Virus record (IMG/VR): IMGVR_UViG_3300046810_000239
Span: 1 to 33,544 of that record
Origin: a virus
DNA: 33,544 bases
Strand: one strand, 5' to 3'
The translations under genes and the position numbers were made by a program. Positions within the stretch are counted from its first letter, which is position 1, and each line of letters starts with the position of its first letter. Under the pieces are notes generated by a model, which was not told the DNA's origin, did not search any database, and saw only the letters and a list, made by a program, of their open reading frames with translations. Shown piece after piece: positions 1,412 through 10,550 of the stretch.

Positions 1412-1824
1412 GCGACCTCCTGTGATGCCGGTTCCAGTAGTACGGCCATAGCCAGGGCTTGCTCGCGAAGAGTAATGGAGTCACGTTCGAGCTTTTTTCC
1501 GGTGCGGAAGGCGCTGAATGTCTCAGCGGCGACCCTCAGTTTCTCAGCGATGGCGAGCAGGATTTGACGTTCTGGTTCGCCTAGTTTTGAAGCGGCCATT
1601 GCACGCTCGTAGTGGGCGTAGAGTTGCTTGTAATGACCTCTCGCTTGTTCGAGCGAGAGCTCAAGGCTTTGAATCGCTTGTGAGTTGTCGGACTGTTGGA
1701 TGGCTTTACCTTCGTCAATACCCTCAACGCGGCCATCATTCCGGCCACCTCGATAGCCTGTCCAGTAGAGAAGGGCAACTGCAATGATGAGGACGATCAG
1801 AGCGCAAATTTGAATTGTGGTCAT
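1408..1824 (-). CDS. Small membrane-anchored hypothetical phage protein
   Basis: I do not recognise this 138-residue protein. Residues about 5-24 (ICALIVLIIAVALLYWTGYR) form one hydrophobic segment followed by basic residues, so it is probably a single-pass inner-membrane protein with most of the chain in the cytoplasm. Residues about 45-115 are rich in Gln, Glu, Leu and Ala and look like a coiled coil. GAGGT lies 9 bases before the ATG as the ribosome binding site. It follows the DUF2303 gene in the leftward operon, separated by the 1846-1883 hairpin. Transmembrane plus coiled-coil proteins occur in superinfection-exclusion systems, but nothing here proves such a role. Confidence 0.75.
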   Translation of the reverse strand: MTTIQICALIVLIIAVALLYWTGYRGGRNDGRVEGIDEGKAIQQSDNSQAIQSLELSLEQARGHYKQLYAHYERAMAASKLGEPERQILLAIAEKLRVAAETFSAFRTGKKLERDSITLREQALAMAVLLEPASQEVA

Positions 1825-1845
1825 GTGCTGTGTACCTCGGTAAAA

Positions 1846-1883
1846 CCCACCGCCGGGATTCTTGGTGAGAGGCGGGCGGTGGG
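1846..1883 (-). ncRNA. RNA hairpin with CCTCTCACCA loop (copy L1)
   Basis: Read in the direction of the leftward transcript, CCCACCGCC (1875-1883) pairs perfectly over 9 bp with GGCGGTGGG (1846-1854). The loop holds CCTCTCACCA (1863-1872) followed by AGAAT. It lies between the DUF2303 gene and the small membrane-protein gene. It is one of five hairpins in the window with the same loop and unrelated stems. There is no T-run after it, so it is not a simple terminator. Confidence 0.7.
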
Positions 1884-1901
1884 GTGTTGTTTGGGGTTGA
1901 G

Positions 1902-2723
1902 TTACAGGGTGGCTTCGTACAGTGGTACGTCCCCGATTGCGCTTTGGATCTTCTGGCGAACGGCGTTGTAGGCCTCTTCAAGCACCTTGTCCGGGCGCAC
2001 CAGCTCGAACCACATTTGCAGGCGGCCTTCCAGAATGCGATAGCGGAAGCGGGCCGGGACGCAGAACGCGTCGCCACCAAGGAACGGTTTCACGGCAATG
2101 AAGAATTGTTCGGGGATACGCAGTTGGCCTGCTTCGCCGGCACGACCGTCGATTTCTTCGTTGTAGGTCAGTTGCACCTGCCCGTTATCGAGGCGGGTAC
2201 CTTGGCGAAAGGTGATGTTTTTCTTGGCTTCCAGGGTTCGGCTGATTTCCAGCATGTCGGCAGGGCTAGGGTCGTTCACTTCGTTTGCGCGCTGGGTGAT
2301 GTCCCTGACGTTCTCTTCGATGAACTCGGCGAACGTTGCTTGATCCATGCGCTTGCGGTCGTTCTCTTTCCAGCGGCCCCATTCGATGCTGGTAGGGCAA
2401 CGGTACGTGGCCACGTGTTCGCGCCAGGCGGGGGCAGTTGGCTGGTGGTAATCGATAACCGCCAAAAAGGTCCGGCCTTCGGGGCCGTTGCAAAACACTG
2501 CAGTTGCGGCATCGGCGAAGCGGTTCACGTATGCGATGAAGGACTCGGCATCAAGCACAGTGAGTTTCTGGCGCGTGCGAGTGGGGTTTGGCAACAGGTG
2601 TTCGAGGTCTTTGATGCTCACGCTGTCTGGTAGCAGTGCAATTGGCGCCAACAGCCCTGGGTGATCGATCGGCTTGCCGATTGCCTGGGCAAGGGTTACC
2701 AGTTCTTGAATCGCTTGTCGCAT
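1902..2723 (-). CDS. DUF2303 family phage protein
   Basis: This 273-residue protein is close to the usual length of the DUF2303 (YfdQ-like) family, found in early operons of Pseudomonas and enterobacterial prophages and of unknown biochemical role. Recognised features are the start MRQAIQELVTLAQ, a central stretch with FLAVIDYHQP, and WREHVATYRCPTSIEW about residues 105-125. The later part holds GELR/LTYNEEI-type strands and ends in an RYRILEGRLQMWFELVRP segment. GGAG lies 8 bases before the ATG. It lies downstream of the 114-residue gene, with a motif-bearing but apparently stemless CCTCTCACCA site between them. The family is recognised from memory of its sequence pattern. Confidence 0.85.
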   Translation of the reverse strand: MRQAIQELVTLAQAIGKPIDHPGLLAPIALLPDSVSIKDLEHLLPNPTRTRQKLTVLDAESFIAYVNRFADAATAVFCNGPEGRTFLAVIDYHQPTAPAWREHVATYRCPTSIEWGRWKENDRKRMDQATFAEFIEENVRDITQRANEVNDPSPADMLEISRTLEAKKNITFRQGTRLDNGQVQLTYNEEIDGRAGEAGQLRIPEQFFIAVKPFLGGDAFCVPARFRYRILEGRLQMWFELVRPDKVLEEAYNAVRQKIQSAIGDVPLYEATL

Positions 2724-2748
2724 TGGATGTGCTCCATTGGTGATGCTG

Positions 2749-2758
2749 TGGTGAGAGG
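2749..2758 (-). other. CCTCTCACCA motif without a clear stem (copy L2)
   Basis: The ten-base motif CCTCTCACCA occurs in sense orientation in the leader between the 114-residue gene and the DUF2303 gene, about 25 bases upstream of the DUF2303 start codon. I found no convincing flanking inverted repeat, unlike the other copies. It may be a degenerate hairpin. Confidence 0.5.
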
Positions 2759-2773
2759 TTTTGAAGTCAGAAG

Positions 2774-3118
2774 TTACTGACTGACGTGGCGCAATTTGTC
2801 GGGCGCGTGTTCTTCGCTGACGGTGCGCAGCGGCAGGTCTTGTTGCCGTGGGTCGCGGCGGGTCAGGTTGCCTTCTGGCGTCAGGAAGAACAGCGATGTG
2901 CCGCGAGACAAGATCGGTTCTTTCGCTTTGACGTCGGCCTTGATGGTCATCTGGCCGCTGCCGTCAGGCTTGTAAATCAGCTTAATGTTCAGCTCTCCGC
3001 CCTTGCCGGTCTGGCGGATAGCATCGATAAGGCTGTGTTGGGTTTCGCTGAGTTCATCAAGTAAGCCTCCGGCCTCAATGTCCCGTAGCGTGTCTATGAA
3101 GGGACGTGCTTTGCTCAT
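2774..3118 (-). CDS. Hypothetical phage protein, 114 aa
   Basis: The product is not recognised with certainty. I chose the ATG at 3118 (MSKARPFIDTLRDIEAGG) because TGAGG lies about 8 bases before it; a frame extending 40 codons further upstream has no such support. The N-terminal half (residues 1-45) is helical and acidic (LLDELSETQHSLIDAIRQTG). It is followed by a beta-rich part with GELNIKLIYKPDGSGQMTIK and TSLFFLTPEGNLTRRDP. It sits between the PrtN-like gene and the DUF2303 gene. Small early genes of this type are common in Pseudomonas prophages next to DUF2303, but no function is known to me. Confidence 0.75.
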   Translation of the reverse strand: MSKARPFIDTLRDIEAGGLLDELSETQHSLIDAIRQTGKGGELNIKLIYKPDGSGQMTIKADVKAKEPILSRGTSLFFLTPEGNLTRRDPRQQDLPLRTVSEEHAPDKLRHVSQ

Positions 3119-3176
3119 ATGCTGTGCCTCAATGAGTGGATGTTGTTTACCCCTGGACGGCAGGGGCGCCGTTGAA

Positions 3177-3422
3177 TCAGGCTGCTGTCTTCGTTGCTTG
3201 AGAATCGAGGTAGGCGGCCAGGTCGTGCAGATAAACAACCGCTGTGCCTTTATTTCCTGCTCCGCCTAGGCGGGTCACTTTCAATTGAATTCGCCCAGCG
3301 CTGATGCGGCGTAGTAGGTAGCGGTCGCTAGATATGTGAGAGAAGTAACGCTCACGGATGGCTGATAGCGTTGGGCATGGTGTCGCCCATTCCTTTCGCA
3401 ATTGGTCAATGGTGTTGCTCAC
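3177..3422 (-). CDS. prtN: PrtN-family transcriptional activator (pyocin activator homologue)
   Basis: This 81-residue protein matches the pyocin activator PrtN family. It has the characteristic core ERYFSHISSDRYLLRRISAG at about residues 23-42, then a strand with QLKVTRLGG and the C-terminal VVYLHDLAAYLDSQ helix. In P. aeruginosa, PrtN activates pyocin genes by binding P-box repeats, and the LexA-like repressor PrtR keeps prtN off. Translation starts at a GTG (3422) that overlaps the stop of the upstream gene by 4 bp, with GGAGG 7 bases before it. It is in the leftward operon under the CI-controlled PL promoter, so induction should switch it on. A P-box-like repeat lies at 10570-10617 before the late region, a likely target. 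Confidence 0.85.
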   Translation of the reverse strand: MSNTIDQLRKEWATPCPTLSAIRERYFSHISSDRYLLRRISAGRIQLKVTRLGGAGNKGTAVVYLHDLAAYLDSQATKTAA

Positions 3423-3802
3423 GCAGCGTCCTCCCCGAGCCCCTCCGATGGGGGCAGCAACTTGAGCCGAATCAGTTCAGCGAGGCTTTCTTTGCTTTTG
3501 CCCATGCCTGCAGCGCAGATTTGGCCCTTTACATCAGCGACCACGGCGCCGAATGGATACTCGGGCGAGTTGGTCGGGGTGACATAGGCCACTTGGCCTT
3601 CTTGAATCACGTCGTTGACGCAGCGAAATACCTCGGCCAGTTCCACTGTGCGGAAAGGCATGCTGTCCAGCAGGTCAATGGCTTCGCTGGCGGCGCCGAT
3701 CAGTGTGGCGCGGCTAACCACGCCCGGGCTGCCCAGGTAGATGGGGATCAGCCTCAGGGCGCCGAGGGCTTGTGTGTAGGCATTGAAGTAGTTGGTTTTC
3801 AT
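3419..3802 (-). CDS. Hypothetical phage protein, 127 aa
   Basis: I do not recognise a function. The start ATG at 3802 overlaps the previous gene's stop (ATGA), and its own stop overlaps the GTG of the PrtN-like gene, so translation of the three is probably coupled. Residues 1-60 are mostly helical (GVVSRATLIGAASEAIDLLD). A middle portion with VAYVTPTNSPEYPFGAVVAD looks beta-rich, and the C-terminus is charged (SKESLAELIRLKLLPP). No transmembrane segment or signal peptide is apparent. Confidence 0.8.
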   Translation of the reverse strand: MKTNYFNAYTQALGALRLIPIYLGSPGVVSRATLIGAASEAIDLLDSMPFRTVELAEVFRCVNDVIQEGQVAYVTPTNSPEYPFGAVVADVKGQICAAGMGKSKESLAELIRLKLLPPSEGLGEDAA

Positions 3803-4074
3803 GCGGCTGCGTCCTTGTGCGTGATGGTGACGCCCAGCTTCTTAGCCAGCCATTGCACGCCGGCCTCGGTGACCATCACTACTGCGTAGTGCTTGTAGCG
3901 GTTGGTGGTTCCGATCTGGACGCTGCGCGGGTCTGAAAACAGATTGCCGCCACCACGGTGGTGGCTGGCCAAGTCGCCGCTTTGCGTCAGCACATGGAGC
4001 GCACGCAGTTGCTCGCGGAATTTCCGGGGTTTGAGTCCGAGCACTGCGGCAGTTTCGTCCAGGGTGCGGTTCAT
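3799..4074 (-). CDS. KilAC-like winged-helix protein (possible antirepressor)
   Basis: This 91-residue protein begins at ATG 4074 (MNRTLDETAAVLGLKPRKFR). A longer frame upstream overlaps the kinase gene and lacks support. It has the layout of the KilAC domain found at the C-terminus of phage antirepressors: a helix-turn-helix start (DETAAVLGLKPRKFREQLRA), a strand pair around HRGGGNLFSDPRSV, and the ending VTEAGVQWLAKKLGV, which is typical of the family's 'T..G..wl...l' close. Only this DNA-binding half is present. Whether it acts as an antirepressor or a transcription regulator cannot be told from the sequence. Confidence 0.65.
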   Translation of the reverse strand: MNRTLDETAAVLGLKPRKFREQLRALHVLTQSGDLASHHRGGGNLFSDPRSVQIGTTNRYKHYAVVMVTEAGVQWLAKKLGVTITHKDAAA

Positions 4075-4084
4075 GGCGCTGTCC

Positions 4085-4651
4085 TCAGGCGACTGCTGCA
4101 CGGACGTGCAGCGTGTCCACGATGTCATCGACGTTCGTGAACAATTCATCGAAGGAGCCATCGTTTGTCAGCCGCAAATCGCCAGGAGCAACCTGGATTC
4201 CGTTTTCGCTGCTGTGCGGTTTTACGGGGGTTGCCACCACGCGATCCATGTGAAGTACGACGCCGCCGCGCTTTCGGATGAAGTCTGCTTCGTTGTTGAA
4301 CCGAATGTCGCTGACGACGAAGCCGCGTGCGGTGTCGTGGGTGCGTGCCAGTAGGTCGAGGTTCTGCGCGGCCAATAGCAGCCATAGTTCAGGGTGCACG
4401 CTGTTGCGGCCCCACTCGGTACCCAGGGACTGCATCAGCTCGCGAGGTGAGCGTCCCAACCATGGCAATGCTTGTTCCTTTTGCTCGCATTCGAAGTCGC
4501 ACGGGCTCAGGTTGAGGATGTGCATTAGGCCGTCACGCAACGGATCAGCGAACGCGTAGGACTGGAATCCGTGATTGTTAACCAGGTGTTGTGCCGCCGT
4601 GTCTTTGCCCGAGCGAGCCCGCCCGGTAAGGCCGATTAGAAGTGTCGTCAT
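4085..4651 (-). CDS. Deoxynucleoside monophosphate kinase-like protein
   Basis: This 188-residue P-loop kinase resembles phage deoxynucleotide monophosphate kinases (T4 gp1 type), which raise dNTP supply for phage replication. The Walker A motif is GRARSGKDT at residues 10-18. The phage-family stretch FADPLRDGLMHILNL follows at about 35-49. Residues 67-80 hold the SPRELMQSLGTEWGR segment typical of this family's substrate region, and FVVSDIRFNNEADFI at about 110-124 is the usual 'D-x-R-f-x-nE' motif. Its start overlaps the stop of the upstream 64-residue gene (ATGA at 4648-4651). Confidence 0.85.
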   Translation of the reverse strand: MTTLLIGLTGRARSGKDTAAQHLVNNHGFQSYAFADPLRDGLMHILNLSPCDFECEQKEQALPWLGRSPRELMQSLGTEWGRNSVHPELWLLLAAQNLDLLARTHDTARGFVVSDIRFNNEADFIRKRGGVVLHMDRVVATPVKPHSSENGIQVAPGDLRLTNDGSFDELFTNVDDIVDTLHVRAAVA

Positions 4652-4842
4652 GCTGCGTCACCCTCGAACGTCGAGAAGGCTGCGGCATTGGTGAGGGCTT
4701 GGATGGCCTCGGTATGACCTTTGGTGGTGATCACCAGCAGGCCGGTGCGGCGCTGGATGGCTTCTACTGCTGCGCGGCTACTGCATGCCGTTGGGTGCAG
4801 GTAGACCGGGCAGCGGGTGTCGTTGTGCTGTGTGGTTTGCAT
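4648..4842 (-). CDS. Small hypothetical protein, first gene of leftward operon
   Basis: This 64-residue protein is not recognised. The ATG at 4842 directly follows the 3' arm of the hairpin at 4843-4876, which forms the 5' end of the predicted PL transcript, so no usual spaced Shine-Dalgarno site is present. The composition is ordinary and soluble (AAVEAIQRRTGLLVITTKGH near the middle). Its position right after PL and the ATGA overlap with the kinase gene support it as a real gene. The unusual leader may control its translation. Confidence 0.65.
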   Translation of the reverse strand: MQTTQHNDTRCPVYLHPTACSSRAAVEAIQRRTGLLVITTKGHTEAIQALTNAAAFSTFEGDAA

Positions 4843-4876
4843 GGCTCGTACTCTTTGGTGAGAGGTTTACGGAGCC
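4843..4876 (-). ncRNA. RNA hairpin with CCTCTCACCA loop at the 5' end of the PL transcript (copy L3)
   Basis: In transcript sense, GGCTC-C-GTA (4868-4876) pairs with TAC-GAGCC (4843-4850) over 8 bp with one bulged C. The loop displays CCTCTCACCA (4856-4865) followed by AAGAG. The predicted PL start point falls at about 4871-4876, so the RNA would begin with this hairpin and the AUG of the first gene follows at once. In location it resembles the put RNA elements of phage HK022. Confidence 0.7.
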
Positions 4877-4877
4877 A

Positions 4878-4906
4878 AAATTAGTATCACTGATAAAATA
4901 AGTCAA
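4878..4906 (-). promoter_or_regulatory. Leftward early promoter PL
   Basis: On the minus strand, TTGACT (-35, 4901-4906) is followed after exactly 17 bases by TAATTT (-10, 4878-4883). It points at the leftward operon starting at 4842. One AGTGATACT site covers the end of the spacer and the first -10 base, and another lies just upstream of the -35, as expected for a repressor-controlled promoter. Confidence 0.75.
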
Positions 4907-4916
4907 CAGTGATACT
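4883..4916. promoter_or_regulatory. CI/Cro operator pair OL (inverted repeat)
   Basis: AGTATCACTG (4883-4892) and CAGTGATACT (4907-4916) form a perfect 10-bp inverted repeat with a 14-bp gap. Each arm also contains its own small palindrome, AGT-N3-ACT. The arms flank and overlap PL. Related sites occur at 5781-5789 (AGTAACACT) in PR and at 5724-5732 (AGTGGCGCT on the minus strand) in the repressor promoter. Binding by CI or Cro is inferred. Confidence 0.65.
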
Positions 4917-4945
4917 TATATTTACTGATTGATTTCCAATTTGCA

Positions 4946-4970
4946 CAAAAAAGCCCGCTTGTGCGGGCTT
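4946..4970 (-). terminator. Rho-independent terminator of the repressor gene
   Basis: AAGCCCGC (4951-4958) and GCGGGCTT (4963-4970) form an 8-bp stem with a TTGT loop. Read leftward, it is followed by a run of T (4946-4952). It lies 13 bases after the repressor stop codon and separates repressor transcription from PL. Confidence 0.85.
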
Positions 4971-4982
4971 CGGTAATGGGAT

Positions 4983-5708
4983 TCAAAGGTCGACAATTTT
5001 CCGTCTAGCTCTGCCGCAAATTGACCACTCTTCATTCATCCGGATTATTCGATCGGGCCAGTCAGGGTTGGTCGCGTAAAGGTAAAATTCGGTGCCTTCC
5101 TGTCGGAGTTGCTTAAGAGTGACAGCTTCGTCCCTATAGCGCTTCGCGACTACGACATCACCCGAATTCCATTGCATGTCGGGGTCGATTACCACTTTGT
5201 CACCAGGCTTGAAGTCTGGCTCCATACTAAATCCTTCGACGCGAAGGATGAATGCTCGTGGACCTGCAGGGCCGCCAGCTTCTACCCAGTCGTCTGCATC
5301 TTCAGGTTGAAAGTTTTCAACCGCTTCACAAAAAGCGCCTGCTTTTACGTAACCAATCACGGGCAGTAATCTCCCCGCTGACCCCATATCCGTCGTGTTT
5401 TGTACCTTCGGCTCGTATTTGCCCAATGATTCAGCAACGCCGCCTTGGCTAGTTGAAATCGTCTCGACCAACCGAGGGCTGACAGCTTCTGGAGGGAAGT
5501 TCAATGCCCGGCTCAGGCTCATTAGAGCGGATATGTTCAGCGGTATTTTTCCTGTCATGTACTGACTAACCACACTTTGGCTGGCCCAGCCGCATTCGTG
5601 CGCGACCTTTTCCTGATTCAGGGAGGGGTCGGCCGATTTTCGGGCCTTGTAGATCGCCTTGAGACGCGCTGCTTCTTCAGCAGAATGTGTATTTTTTTCG
5701 CTAGTCAT
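4983..5708 (-). CDS. cI: CI-type repressor, helix-turn-helix plus S24 (LexA-like) peptidase
   Basis: The product maintains lysogeny and is cleaved after DNA damage. With the start at ATG 5708 (MTSEKNTHSAEE) it is 241 residues. A helix-turn-helix lies at residues about 30-62 (NQEKVAHECGWASQSVVSQY). The S24 peptidase domain spans about 115-238, with the Ala123-Gly124 cleavage site in VKAGAF, nucleophile Ser161 in EGFSMEPDF and Lys199 in VTLKQL. A frame 34 codons longer would run through the operator region and is unlikely. No Shine-Dalgarno sequence precedes the ATG, and the predicted promoter puts the RNA start within a few bases of it, so the message may be nearly leaderless, like the lambda cI message. 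The domain layout is that of PrtR. Confidence 0.92.
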   Translation of the reverse strand: MTSEKNTHSAEEAARLKAIYKARKSADPSLNQEKVAHECGWASQSVVSQYMTGKIPLNISALMSLSRALNFPPEAVSPRLVETISTSQGGVAESLGKYEPKVQNTTDMGSAGRLLPVIGYVKAGAFCEAVENFQPEDADDWVEAGGPAGPRAFILRVEGFSMEPDFKPGDKVVIDPDMQWNSGDVVVAKRYRDEAVTLKQLRQEGTEFYLYATNPDWPDRIIRMNEEWSICGRARRKIVDL

Positions 5709-5715
5709 GGCAGGA

Positions 5716-5744
5716 AATATATTAGCGCCACTTATTCCTAGCAA
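5716..5744 (-). promoter_or_regulatory. Repressor maintenance promoter (PRM-like)
   Basis: On the minus strand, TTGCTA (-35, 5739-5744) is followed after 17 bases by TATATT (-10, 5716-5721). The ATG of the repressor comes only 7 bases after the -10. An operator-like AGTGGCGCT (5724-5732) lies in the spacer, which would allow the repressor to regulate itself. Confidence 0.65.
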
Positions 5745-5765
5745 AGAGTATTGCTTATATTTTTC

Positions 5766-5794
5766 TTGCCTGAAAATAGAAGTAACACTAATAT
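5766..5794 (+). promoter_or_regulatory. Rightward early promoter PR with operator
   Basis: TTGCCT (5766-5771), a 17-base spacer and TAATAT (5789-5794) point at the cro gene. The operator-like AGTAACACT (5781-5789) covers spacer positions 10-17 and the first -10 base. That is exactly the register of AGTGATACT in PL, which supports both promoter calls. Confidence 0.7.
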
Positions 5795-5823
5795 TCATCT
5801 GAACGCCCATCGAGGAAAAAGGG

Positions 5824-6024
5824 ATGGAAACTGAATTTGGAGTTCCCTTGAGGGACTTCGCAAAAGGGCGAAGTCAGCCAGAGCTGGCGGAGCTGCTCGG
5901 CGTCACTCAAAGCGCAGTGTCACAAATGCTCCATTCGACACGAGACATTCGGGTTCGAAGCGAGGGGCTGAACAAATATGTAGCGTTCGAGATACGGCCA
6001 ATAGGCAGTCGTCGGAAGCAATAG
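5824..6024 (+). CDS. cro: Cro-like repressor
   Basis: This 66-residue helix-turn-helix protein is divergent from the repressor and directly after PR. The DNA-binding motif is at residues about 16-37 (SQPELAELLGVTQSAVSQML), with the Cro-family ending YVAFEIRPIGSRRKQ. Its length matches Cro proteins of Pseudomonas phages. GAGGA lies 8 bases before the ATG. Its expected role is to turn down repressor and early transcription in lytic growth by binding the same operators. Confidence 0.85.
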   Translation: METEFGVPLRDFAKGRSQPELAELLGVTQSAVSQMLHSTRDIRVRSEGLNKYVAFEIRPIGSRRKQ

Positions 6025-6038
6025 ATTGAAAGGATGCC

Positions 6039-6074
6039 GGGCTGGGGCCTCTCACCATAAGAATCCCCCAGCCC
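6039..6074 (+). ncRNA. RNA hairpin with CCTCTCACCA loop (copy R1)
   Basis: GGGCTGGGG (6039-6047) pairs perfectly over 9 bp with CCCCAGCCC (6066-6074). The loop is CCTCTCACCA (6048-6057) followed by TAAGAATC. It lies 15 bases after the cro stop codon. Confidence 0.7.
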
Positions 6075-6118
6075 AGCGGTGGCGATACGCAGCACACACC
6101 GTAACGCCACATGAAACA

Positions 6119-6155
6119 CCGGCCTGAACCTCTCACCAAAGAAACTCAAGGCCGG
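6119..6155 (+). ncRNA. RNA hairpin with CCTCTCACCA loop (copy R2)
   Basis: CCGGCC (6119-6124) pairs with GGCCGG (6150-6155), and TGA/TCA extends the stem after one bulged base. The loop carries CCTCTCACCA (6129-6138) followed by AAGAAA. Confidence 0.65.
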
Positions 6156-6203
6156 AAGTAACGAGCTACACAAGGTACATGCAAGTCGCTACATAGCGCG
6201 TCG

Positions 6204-6237
6204 GCCCAGGACCTCTCACCATAAGAATCCCCTGGGC
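6204..6237 (+). ncRNA. RNA hairpin with CCTCTCACCA loop (copy R3)
   Basis: GCCCAGG (6204-6210) pairs with CCTGGGC (6231-6237) over 7 bp. The loop carries CCTCTCACCA (6212-6221) followed by TAAGAATCC, identical over 17 bases to the loop of copy R1 although the stems differ. Confidence 0.7.
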
Positions 6238-6329
6238 TGACTGGAACGATGAACCGTGCTGCACAGCACTATTCGCACAGCACATCGGTCGTGGTCGTAG
6301 AATAGAGCGTGTTTGACTCTACGGCCACA

Positions 6330-6350
6330 CCGTAAACAGGGGATTTACGG
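6330..6350 (+). promoter_or_regulatory. Hairpin presenting the ribosome binding site of the CII-like gene
   Basis: CCGTAAA (6330-6336) and TTTACGG (6344-6350) form a perfect 7-bp stem. The 7-base loop CAGGGGA is the only Shine-Dalgarno-like sequence before the ATG at 6353. A GGA inside a hairpin loop also fits the general form of RsmA/CsrA targets. Regulation is inferred. Confidence 0.5.
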
Positions 6351-6352
6351 TT

Positions 6353-6841
6353 ATGAGTCGCACAGATCTTTTGCCGGGTGCAGGCCCGGTCCTTTCACTG
6401 CGCAAAGCCCTTTACCGGGCAGGCCATGATTATCGGGGCGGTGTAACTGCTCTGGCATTGGACATGGTCATCGATTACGACACCCTCCAGAAGAAACTAA
6501 AGCACGACGAAGAGCGCCGGTGGCTTGATCCTGATGAGCTTGAAGAGGTGATACGCCTGACGGCAAATCCCTTGTTGCTGGATGCCCTAATGCGACCTGC
6601 CGGCATGGTCTGGTACAAGCCGGAAGCGGCGGCGCCGACCAAGGAAGCTTTGCTGGCCGTCAGCAAGGTGCTGCACCAGACCGGCCTGTTTGTTTCCAGC
6701 ATGCACGAAGGTGCCGCCGACAACGTCTGGGAGCCCCGCGAAGTTGAATGCTTGGAGAAACACGGCGCCGACGTTATCCGCGCGGTGTTGGGCATCATGG
6801 CCGGGGCCAGGGAAGCGATGGAGGCCCGCCAAGATGACTGA
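6353..6841 (+). CDS. CII-like phage regulatory protein (CP76 family)
   Basis: This 162-residue protein matches the phage regulatory protein CII/CP76 family, common after cro in Pseudomonas and P2-type phages. Diagnostic stretches are SLRKALYRAGHDYRGGVTAL at residues 14-33 and DYDTLQKKLKHDEERRWLDP at about 42-61, followed by ELEEVIRLTANPLLLDAL and the C-terminal helices DVIRAVLGIMAGAREAMEAR. In lambda, CII activates the repressor and integrase promoters; here that role is assumed from family and position. The gene sits behind a 328-base structured leader, and its own ribosome binding site is in a hairpin loop, which suggests post-transcriptional control. Confidence 0.85.
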   Translation: MSRTDLLPGAGPVLSLRKALYRAGHDYRGGVTALALDMVIDYDTLQKKLKHDEERRWLDPDELEEVIRLTANPLLLDALMRPAGMVWYKPEAAAPTKEALLAVSKVLHQTGLFVSSMHEGAADNVWEPREVECLEKHGADVIRAVLGIMAGAREAMEARQDD

Positions 6842-9733: not shown

Positions 9734-10065
9734 CTACGCCTAAAAGTGTGTTGGGTGTGTCGGGTGTGTGTCGGGTTGTTTTTGGCTACCCAACACAGTT
9801 TCAGTCCTTTGTTTGCGTGGGTTTCGGCCTGTTGTGTTGGGTGTGTTGGGTTTGGCGTCGCGTGCGCGCATGCATGACATTATTTTCACCGAAAGCGATG
9901 ACGATAATTTTTTCTTATGCGAGGACAGAAAACCCCAACAAACCCAACACACTCAACTCAAAGTTAATAAGAGCATTGATTTTAAAGGGATTTATTTGTG
10001 TTGGGTTTGTGTCGGGTAGTGGTTTTTCTGTGTTGGGTTCGGTTTTTCGAGGGAAAGGGCGATGA
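9730..10065 (+). CDS. Doubtful 111-residue reading frame across the repeat array
   Basis: A frame begins with ATGA overlapping the primase stop and ends with ATGA overlapping the next start, so by spacing it could be a coupled gene. Its translation is dominated by the DNA repeats (LGVSGVCRVV, CWVCWVW, NPNKPNTLN, ICVGFVSGSG) and is rich in Cys, Val, Trp and Gly in a way I cannot relate to any family. It more likely reflects the repeat array than a protein. Confidence 0.25.
   Translation: MTTPKSVLGVSGVCRVVFGYPTQFQSFVCVGFGLLCWVCWVWRRVRACMTLFSPKAMTIIFSYARTENPNKPNTLNSKLIRALILKGFICVGFVSGSGFSVLGSVFRGKGR
9748..10038. repeat. Iteron-like array of GTGTYGGGT, candidate replication origin
   Basis: The nonamer GTGTTGGGT or GTGTCGGGT occurs on the plus strand at 9748, 9757, 9768, 9834, 9843, 9998, 10009 and 10030. 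It is inverted as ACCCAACAC at 9788 and 9942, with a weaker copy at 9933. Two AT-rich stretches, about 9877-9920 and 9959-9997, lie between clusters. Repeats on both strands, next to the replication protein gene and beside AT-rich DNA, are typical of iteron origins. Origin function is inferred. Confidence 0.55.
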
Positions 10066-10550
10066 TCGAGGAAATTGAAGCATTGATGCAGCATTGGGGC
10101 GTCCAGCACTGCCAGGTTGGCGACGGTGGTGGTTTGGGTAGTCCGATGGCGACAATCATGCAGTACGGTGGATGCGCTCCACGTGGCACACCTGGATCGC
10201 GCGATCTCATGATGTCGGCCGGTGGTGGCATGGATCACGCCAGTACTGAGGTTGCCGCCGCAGTTGCGCAGCTTGAGCGTCAGTCGGTGAAGGGCGCTCA
10301 GTTGGCGTTACTGGCTCGCAATCGTTACCTGGCCCAGCCGCCGATGACGGTGCGTGAACAGATGCGTTTGTTACAGCTCGCCGAGGATGCAGACCGGACG
10401 TACAGGAATTGGGTTCATCGTCTGCATCAGCAGGTGCAACTCATCCTCACGGTTCGCAGCGCGACGACCCGGGGACTTGATCGGCGCAGTGGTGTGCTCG
10501 ATACCAACCTAACCCGCGCATCAACAAGCAAGCGTGTGCGGGCATACTAA
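10062..10550 (+). CDS. Phage protein in late-regulator (Q-like) position
   Basis: This 162-residue protein is of a type I have seen downstream of primase genes in Pseudomonas prophages, but I cannot name its family with certainty. The N-terminus (EIEALMQHWGVQ, then GGLGSPMATIMQYGG and APRGTPGSRDL) is followed by a helical C-terminal half. That half contains VREQMRLLQLAEDADRTYRN and WVHRLHQQVQLIL at about residues 108-145, which looks like a helix-turn-helix similar to sigma region 4 or antiterminator proteins. It is the last gene of the rightward early operon, directly before the terminators and the P-box-like region. That is where phages usually place their late regulator, so a Q-like role is a reasonable guess. 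Confidence 0.7.
   Translation: MIEEIEALMQHWGVQHCQVGDGGGLGSPMATIMQYGGCAPRGTPGSRDLMMSAGGGMDHASTEVAAAVAQLERQSVKGAQLALLARNRYLAQPPMTVREQMRLLQLAEDADRTYRNWVHRLHQQVQLILTVRSATTRGLDRRSGVLDTNLTRASTSKRVRAY

Follow-up and report, generated by a model that had tools for sequence, protein, structure and literature searches.

Early region of the phage and copies of the loop word

The stretch of DNA analyzed here, referred to as the window, consists of positions 1-33,544 of the IMG/VR record IMGVR_UViG_3300046810_000239, i.e., 33.5 kb of a phage whose early region is lambda-like, with cI and cro at the center of two divergent early operons, the left one on the minus strand and the right one on the plus strand (Table 1). 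The left operon contains the genes of PL1, DNMK, a KilAC-like protein, a PrtN-like protein, and a DUF2303 protein, and the genes of a TraR/DksA-type protein and of the primase are found on the right. Immediately 5' of the cII start codon there is a hairpin (ACCGTAAA-loop-TTTACGGT) whose loop holds the Shine-Dalgarno sequence AGGGGA and which is retained in the window-type and Turba-type relatives. An inverted repeat 5' of cII (GTGGTCGTAGA...TCTACGGCCAC) is kept, with altered sequence, in most P. aeruginosa-type relatives and is possibly a CII-linked promoter or an RNA hairpin.

Table 1. Coordinates of genes, signals, and element sites in the window.
Feature	Position	Strand	Description
CI-type repressor (LexA/S24 type)	4983-5810	-	S24/CI-like annotation of relatives' counterparts
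Cro-like HTH protein	5824-6024	+	Cro and HTH_3 matches
CII/CP76-type regulator	6353-6841	+	PF06892, E 6e-15
PL1	4648-4842	-	first PL-operon gene, product of 64 aa; phrog_13491, function not assigned
DUF2303 (yfdQ) gene	1902-2723	-	behind site E; PF10065, E 5e-65
phrog_4300 gene	10062-10550		after the primase gene
Predicted PL promoter	4878-4906	-	TTGACT-17-TAATTT, within the GTATCACTG...CAGTGATAC inverted repeat; read from sequence
R1 hairpin	6039-6074	+	loop word CCUCUCACCA at 6048-6057; fold z -1.8, GC-rich background
Motif B after R1	6087-6096	+	ACGCAGCACA, 1 mismatch, 29 nt past word
R2 hairpin	6119-6155	+	word 6129-6138, without motif B; fold z -3.4
R3 hairpin	6200-6241	+	word 6212-6221, copy closest to cII, present in almost all relatives; fold z -3.2
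Motif B after R3	6261-6284	+	two copies, GCACAGCACT at 6261-6270 and GCACAGCACA at 6275-6284
L1 hairpin	4842-4877	-	word 4856-4865, start of predicted PL transcript, abuts PL1 start codon; fold z -3.8
Motif B after L1	4824-4833	-	ACACAGCACA, 22 nt past word, within PL1 codons TTQH
Site E	2749-2758	-	stemless word directly upstream of DUF2303 gene; no structure on folding 2735-2775
F hairpin	1846-1883	-	word 1863-1872, between DUF2303 gene and 138-aa ORF; fold z -3.8
Motif B after F	1824-1833	-	ACACAGCACA, 29 nt past word, just 5' of the 138-aa ORF start codon
cII start-codon hairpin	6328-6352		Shine-Dalgarno sequence in loop
Inverted repeat 5' of cII	6290-6330		

The sequence CCTCTCACCA occurs exactly six times in the window, three times on each strand, and every copy is sense to its own early operon. 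When one mismatch was allowed, seven copies were found against 1.76 expected, a number that 0 shuffles reached, and the reversed pattern used as a control gave 0 copies in the window. Five of the six copies sit in the loops of hairpins whose stems differ in sequence, and the sixth has no stem; the coordinates and orientation given for these sites in a preliminary description of the DNA were confirmed, and folding agreed with them. An inner UCU/AGA mini-helix around CACCA is present in all five hairpins of the window, but is not retained at the F site of relatives. R1 and R3 are situated ~240 and ~400 nt, respectively, downstream of the predicted PR start. In the preliminary description, the predicted PL RNA begins with the L1 hairpin, which is plausible but inexact, because the best PL promoter places the +1 position near 4871; the transcript would then lack the outer GGCUC arm, and only the inner pairs would remain. 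In one related locus (L047, 4736-4775), a copy of CCTCTCACCA was observed upstream of the L1 site within a terminator-like hairpin with a T run.

The element has two parts, the hairpin (A) and a linear ACACAGCAC motif (B), which follows 3' of the hairpin at a near-constant 22-29 nt at most sites (29 nt at R1, 27-28 nt at R3, 22 nt at L1, and 29 nt at F). With one mismatch allowed, 252 of 336 sites had motif B close to the word, compared with 5% of background windows. It is mostly missing at R2 and E sites, and the scan detected none at the two Halomonas-type loci or at the R1 sites of the PG1/pAN type. Because the spacing from A to B is near constant while that from the word to the start codon varies widely, the element looks as if it were built around itself, not around a ribosome site. 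Hairpins of another family, whose loops contain GGACACAGCAC (motif B), were observed in the R regions of L244 (5174-5210), L249, and L424, and in pAN one hairpin with motif B in its loop is a perfect intrinsic terminator before cII.

Conservation of the sites and concerted change of the words

Approximately 200 related loci were gathered by a pattern scan and CII-based searches. In 160 window-type IMG/VR loci there are 494 exact copies, 204 on the plus strand between cro and cII and 290 on the minus strand in the left operon, and all of them (494/494) are sense, with 0 copies antisense or elsewhere, so that the sense-only rule noted earlier for the window withstands the refutation test set along with it and extends to all these loci. 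The R copies, which number one to four per phage between cro and cII, are at fixed offsets from cII (about -121 or -141, -203 or -221, and -285 or -303), and the R1 place is retained in the relatives having three of them; the left copies are also at fixed places, L1 preceding the first left gene and the DUF2303 gene having E in front of it and F behind it. In the relatives, stem retention is 100% at R1 and R3, 98% at F, 87% at R2, and 71% at L1, which is the least-kept hairpin, while site E is stemmed in only 19% and mostly stemless, yet conserved. The stem arms are diverse, with 110 different 7-mers across the window-type loci. Nevertheless, R arms paired far better with the 3' flank belonging to them (23.9) than with flanks that had been swapped (17.6, at most 18.8), and so did L arms (17.5 versus 9.9, at most 11.0), which supports the view, already put forward in the preliminary description, that structure as well as sequence has been kept.

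The copies of the word lie almost only at element sites. In 119 genomes of the genus Pseudomonas, the word is, judged by eye, about as frequent as the reversed control, with the exception of two genomes (G020 and G053) containing word clusters that look like prophages, and the matches of a genome-wide pattern scan beyond the phage group look like chance. No family was matched in an Rfam search at a relaxed E-value, which gave only two sub-threshold chance matches elsewhere and agrees with the previous statement that no named family has this loop; nothing carrying this motif was found in the literature on the word or on put/nut in Pseudomonas.

Relatives with the same gene order carry different loop words, and within a given phage almost every site has the same one. 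The word is CUCUCAC in the Turba type, CCUCUAC in the LPPA56 type, CUCUGAC at all five sites of L341, CUCUAAC at all five sites of L459, and CUCUAUU at three sites of L465, whose F site deviates; CACUUACCA is found in PG1, CACUCACCA in pAN, CACCUACCA in L449 and L451, and CCCACCAC in Halomonas phages. Exceptions to the rule of one word per phage are L340, in which one R loop is CUCUGAAC, L429, in which the sites differ, and L465. The concert was evaluated, with words not chosen beforehand, by comparing the longest match of each phage's own R loop to its own L1 leader with that to permuted leaders. The match was 9.79 nt for 62 phages outside the window clade, against 6.68 ± 0.22 nt after permutation (0 of 2000 permutations), and 7.77 against 6.21 ± 0.34 nt for 13 phages of the P. 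aeruginosa type, the observed value being equaled but not exceeded in 5000 permutations. Copying from site to site is an unlikely cause of the shared word because the flanking stems differ between sites. From the sequences, we infer that the words of a phage change together because they share a trans-acting reader specific to the phage type. Neither this concerted change nor the two-part build was contained in the preliminary description, the interpretation in which is partly supported. A word-like stretch (CCTCTACCAG, CCTCTATCAG, and CCTCACCCAG) was also observed inside the PL1 coding sequence (L334, 5148-5155; L465; L331), and it follows the word of the phage in most, not all, cases.

Possible function and candidate readers

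For the element observed here, with its position, orientation, spacing, and concerted words, the reading we prefer is that of an early RNA element resembling nut and put but using a new recognition code, most likely serving early processive antitermination, to which we give a probability of a little under one-half (about 0.48). The two-part RNA element would form on the nascent early transcripts, and its A hairpin would display the C-rich, almost G-free loop word beside the linear motif B. A factor that reads the word with a specificity differing between phages, probably phage-encoded and presumably a protein, might bind to A, perhaps together with a shared factor on B. The reader would then join RNA polymerase close to PL and PR and might be reloaded at the untranslated gaps E and F further along the left operon. 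A more specific version, which we put forward only tentatively, is that the sites represent a new class of early phage RNA, composed of a hairpin and ACACAGCAC, in which the loop word would be the code for an unrecognized phage protein family, with PL1 as the positional candidate, and antitermination would require neither boxA nor an N-type protein nor put RNA.

One competing explanation, which is unlikely but deserves serious attention, is a post-transcriptional regulon in which a phage RNA-binding protein reads the word and represses, activates, or protects the early mRNAs, RNA polymerase not being involved. All the left sites are just upstream of start codons, L1, E, and F being directly 5' of them, and the extra left sites of L341 and L342 again precede genes, a placement also compatible with translational control; moreover, site E is conserved though mainly stemless, and the GGAG or AGAG contained in the 3' arm of L1 could serve as a Shine-Dalgarno sequence. 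Of 15 phages checked, only vB_PstS-pAN has an intrinsic terminator in the interval from the R sites to cII, and the other 14 gave none, a count covering the intrinsic type only, as Rho-dependent terminators are invisible here; a target of antitermination is thus not directly indicated. Also counting against antitermination are the shortage of motif B at R2 and E, the failure of the proteins of the P. aeruginosa-type clade to track the word clearly, and the exceptions to the rule of one word per phage. The post-transcriptional explanation retains some weight from the lack of visible terminators behind the R sites and from the short distance between the left sites and start codons. However, the distance from the R sites to cII is 120-300 nt and no ORF there requires them, and it is the internal geometry of the element, not the distance to the start codon, that is maintained; this, along with the nut/put-matching places, favors a nascent-RNA signal over a translational operator. 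A put-like element that needs no phage factor and affects RNA polymerase by itself seems improbable to us. The positions do equal those of putL and putR, and no N-like protein was recognized, but the phages of one host type differ in their words, each of them in concert at nearly all sites, for which a fixed host polymerase gives no reason; the concerted words argue for a specific partner. In addition, the unrelated stems and the single hairpin with a linear motif do not agree with the conserved two-stem fold of put.

The CI RNA of satellite phage P4 recognizes repeated short targets in the early leader with type specificity, and the sites in question might similarly be targets of a phage antisense RNA, given that the words are short, single-stranded, present several times per early transcript, and changed together. 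We regard this as highly improbable because exact 7-nt complements of the checked words in P. aeruginosa-type loci are almost only the antisense of the sites themselves, and co-varying 5-6-nt complements with conserved flanks are coding positions only, mainly one inside PL1. The same result speaks against the small-RNA pairing suggested in the preliminary description, and the pairing with Shine-Dalgarno-like sequences suggested there leaves the concerted word change unexplained, whereas its other proposals, antitermination and the binding of a phage RNA-binding protein, are still the best. The slightest chance is given to single-strand DNA hairpins for replication, i.e., sites of priming or of a primosome located on the lagging-strand template, with a bidirectional origin close to cI/cro. 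Such a template would also fit the orientation of the sites away from cI/cro on both sides, and the primase gene adjoins the R sites. Nevertheless, the words of L465 and L468 differ while their primases are essentially the same in the N-terminal part and show 100% identity across the C-terminal 521 aa, and the sites abut promoters and genes and follow the transcription units.

If a phage protein reads the word, PL1 would be the positional candidate by analogy, as its gene takes the place of lambda N, touches L1, and exists in nearly all groups including Halomonas phages. PL1 belongs to an orphan family of 60-70 aa, nearly universal in these phages, with the C-terminus GGDAA or GGAA. Searches of Pfam and PDB gave no relative of PL1, its sequence lacks an arginine-rich stretch, and its AlphaFold model is of low confidence (pLDDT 67.5). 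A His/Asn residue of PL1 that had seemed to split CACUUACCA from CACUCACCA phages failed to do so once more phages were added. CII, TraR/DksA, the PrtN-like and KilAC-like proteins, and primase are disfavored as the reader because, when phages whose words differ are compared, they are ~98-100% identical, at least across long segments, and are therefore unlikely to carry the word specificity, and CI and Cro track the words inconsistently. The phrog_4300 protein separates the words in the PG1 clade (AUC 0.96), compared with an AUC of 0.55 in the P. aeruginosa clade, where the word is not clearly followed by the overall divergence of any protein (about 0.45-0.6 for universal proteins). This protein has variable, often basic C-terminal tails and occupies the place of lambda Q, and its counterpart in Halomonas phage H4907 is annotated as "antitermination protein." The candidates left for the reader are PL1, phrog_4300, CI, Cro, and genes located beyond the loci, none of which cleanly tracks the word.

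Comparison with known systems

To our knowledge, little is known about how polymerase reads through the early operons of lambda-like phages outside enterobacteria. The element spans a large set of temperate phages of Pseudomonas and Halomonas, in which the recognition word has been switched repeatedly and at nearly all sites together. The natural word variants constitute a ready set for testing the reader, the code, and the function by word swaps, and orthogonal RNA-protein pairs would result if the reader is a protein.

The lambda-type nut layout, in which the PL transcript carries sites near PL and the PR transcript carries them between cro and cII, is found in the window, and the positions are fixed in its relatives. 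Like the lambdoid nut/N systems, the sites combine a hairpin with a linear motif on both early transcripts, exist in several copies, as is also the case in coliphage mEp021 with its three nut sites (PMC11893012), and appear to involve phage-specific recognition of the loop and a presumed shared second motif. The linear motif is, however, ACACAGCAC and lies downstream of the hairpin, and boxA (GCTCTTTA-like) is not enriched within 100 nt upstream and 90 nt downstream (15 of 336 sites versus 6.5% in the background). Furthermore, in contrast to the 5-nt A-rich loop of lambda boxB, the loops are C-rich and ~8-26 nt long, with no G in the word of the window; extra copies precede internal genes of the left operon; and no arginine-rich N was recognized at the place of PL1 at the start of the left operon, although another gene could serve.

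HK022 put, with putL at PL and putR ~270 nt after PR (PMC9378689), resembles the sites in position relative to PL and PR, in the formation of nascent RNA hairpins, and in the lack of a recognized phage antiterminator. It differs from them as a conserved RNA of ~70 nt with two stems, whereas one hairpin with unrelated stems and a linear motif is found here, and as a factor-free element it would have no need for words that switch in concert between phages. The targets of P4 CI RNA are likewise short, repeated, and type-specific, but no exact 7-nt complementary RNA was found in the P. aeruginosa-type loci. As far as tested, boxA, the boxB loop, and N set the element apart from nut sites, its fold sets it apart from put sites, and it belongs to no known Rfam family; it would work like these systems without being a member of any of them.
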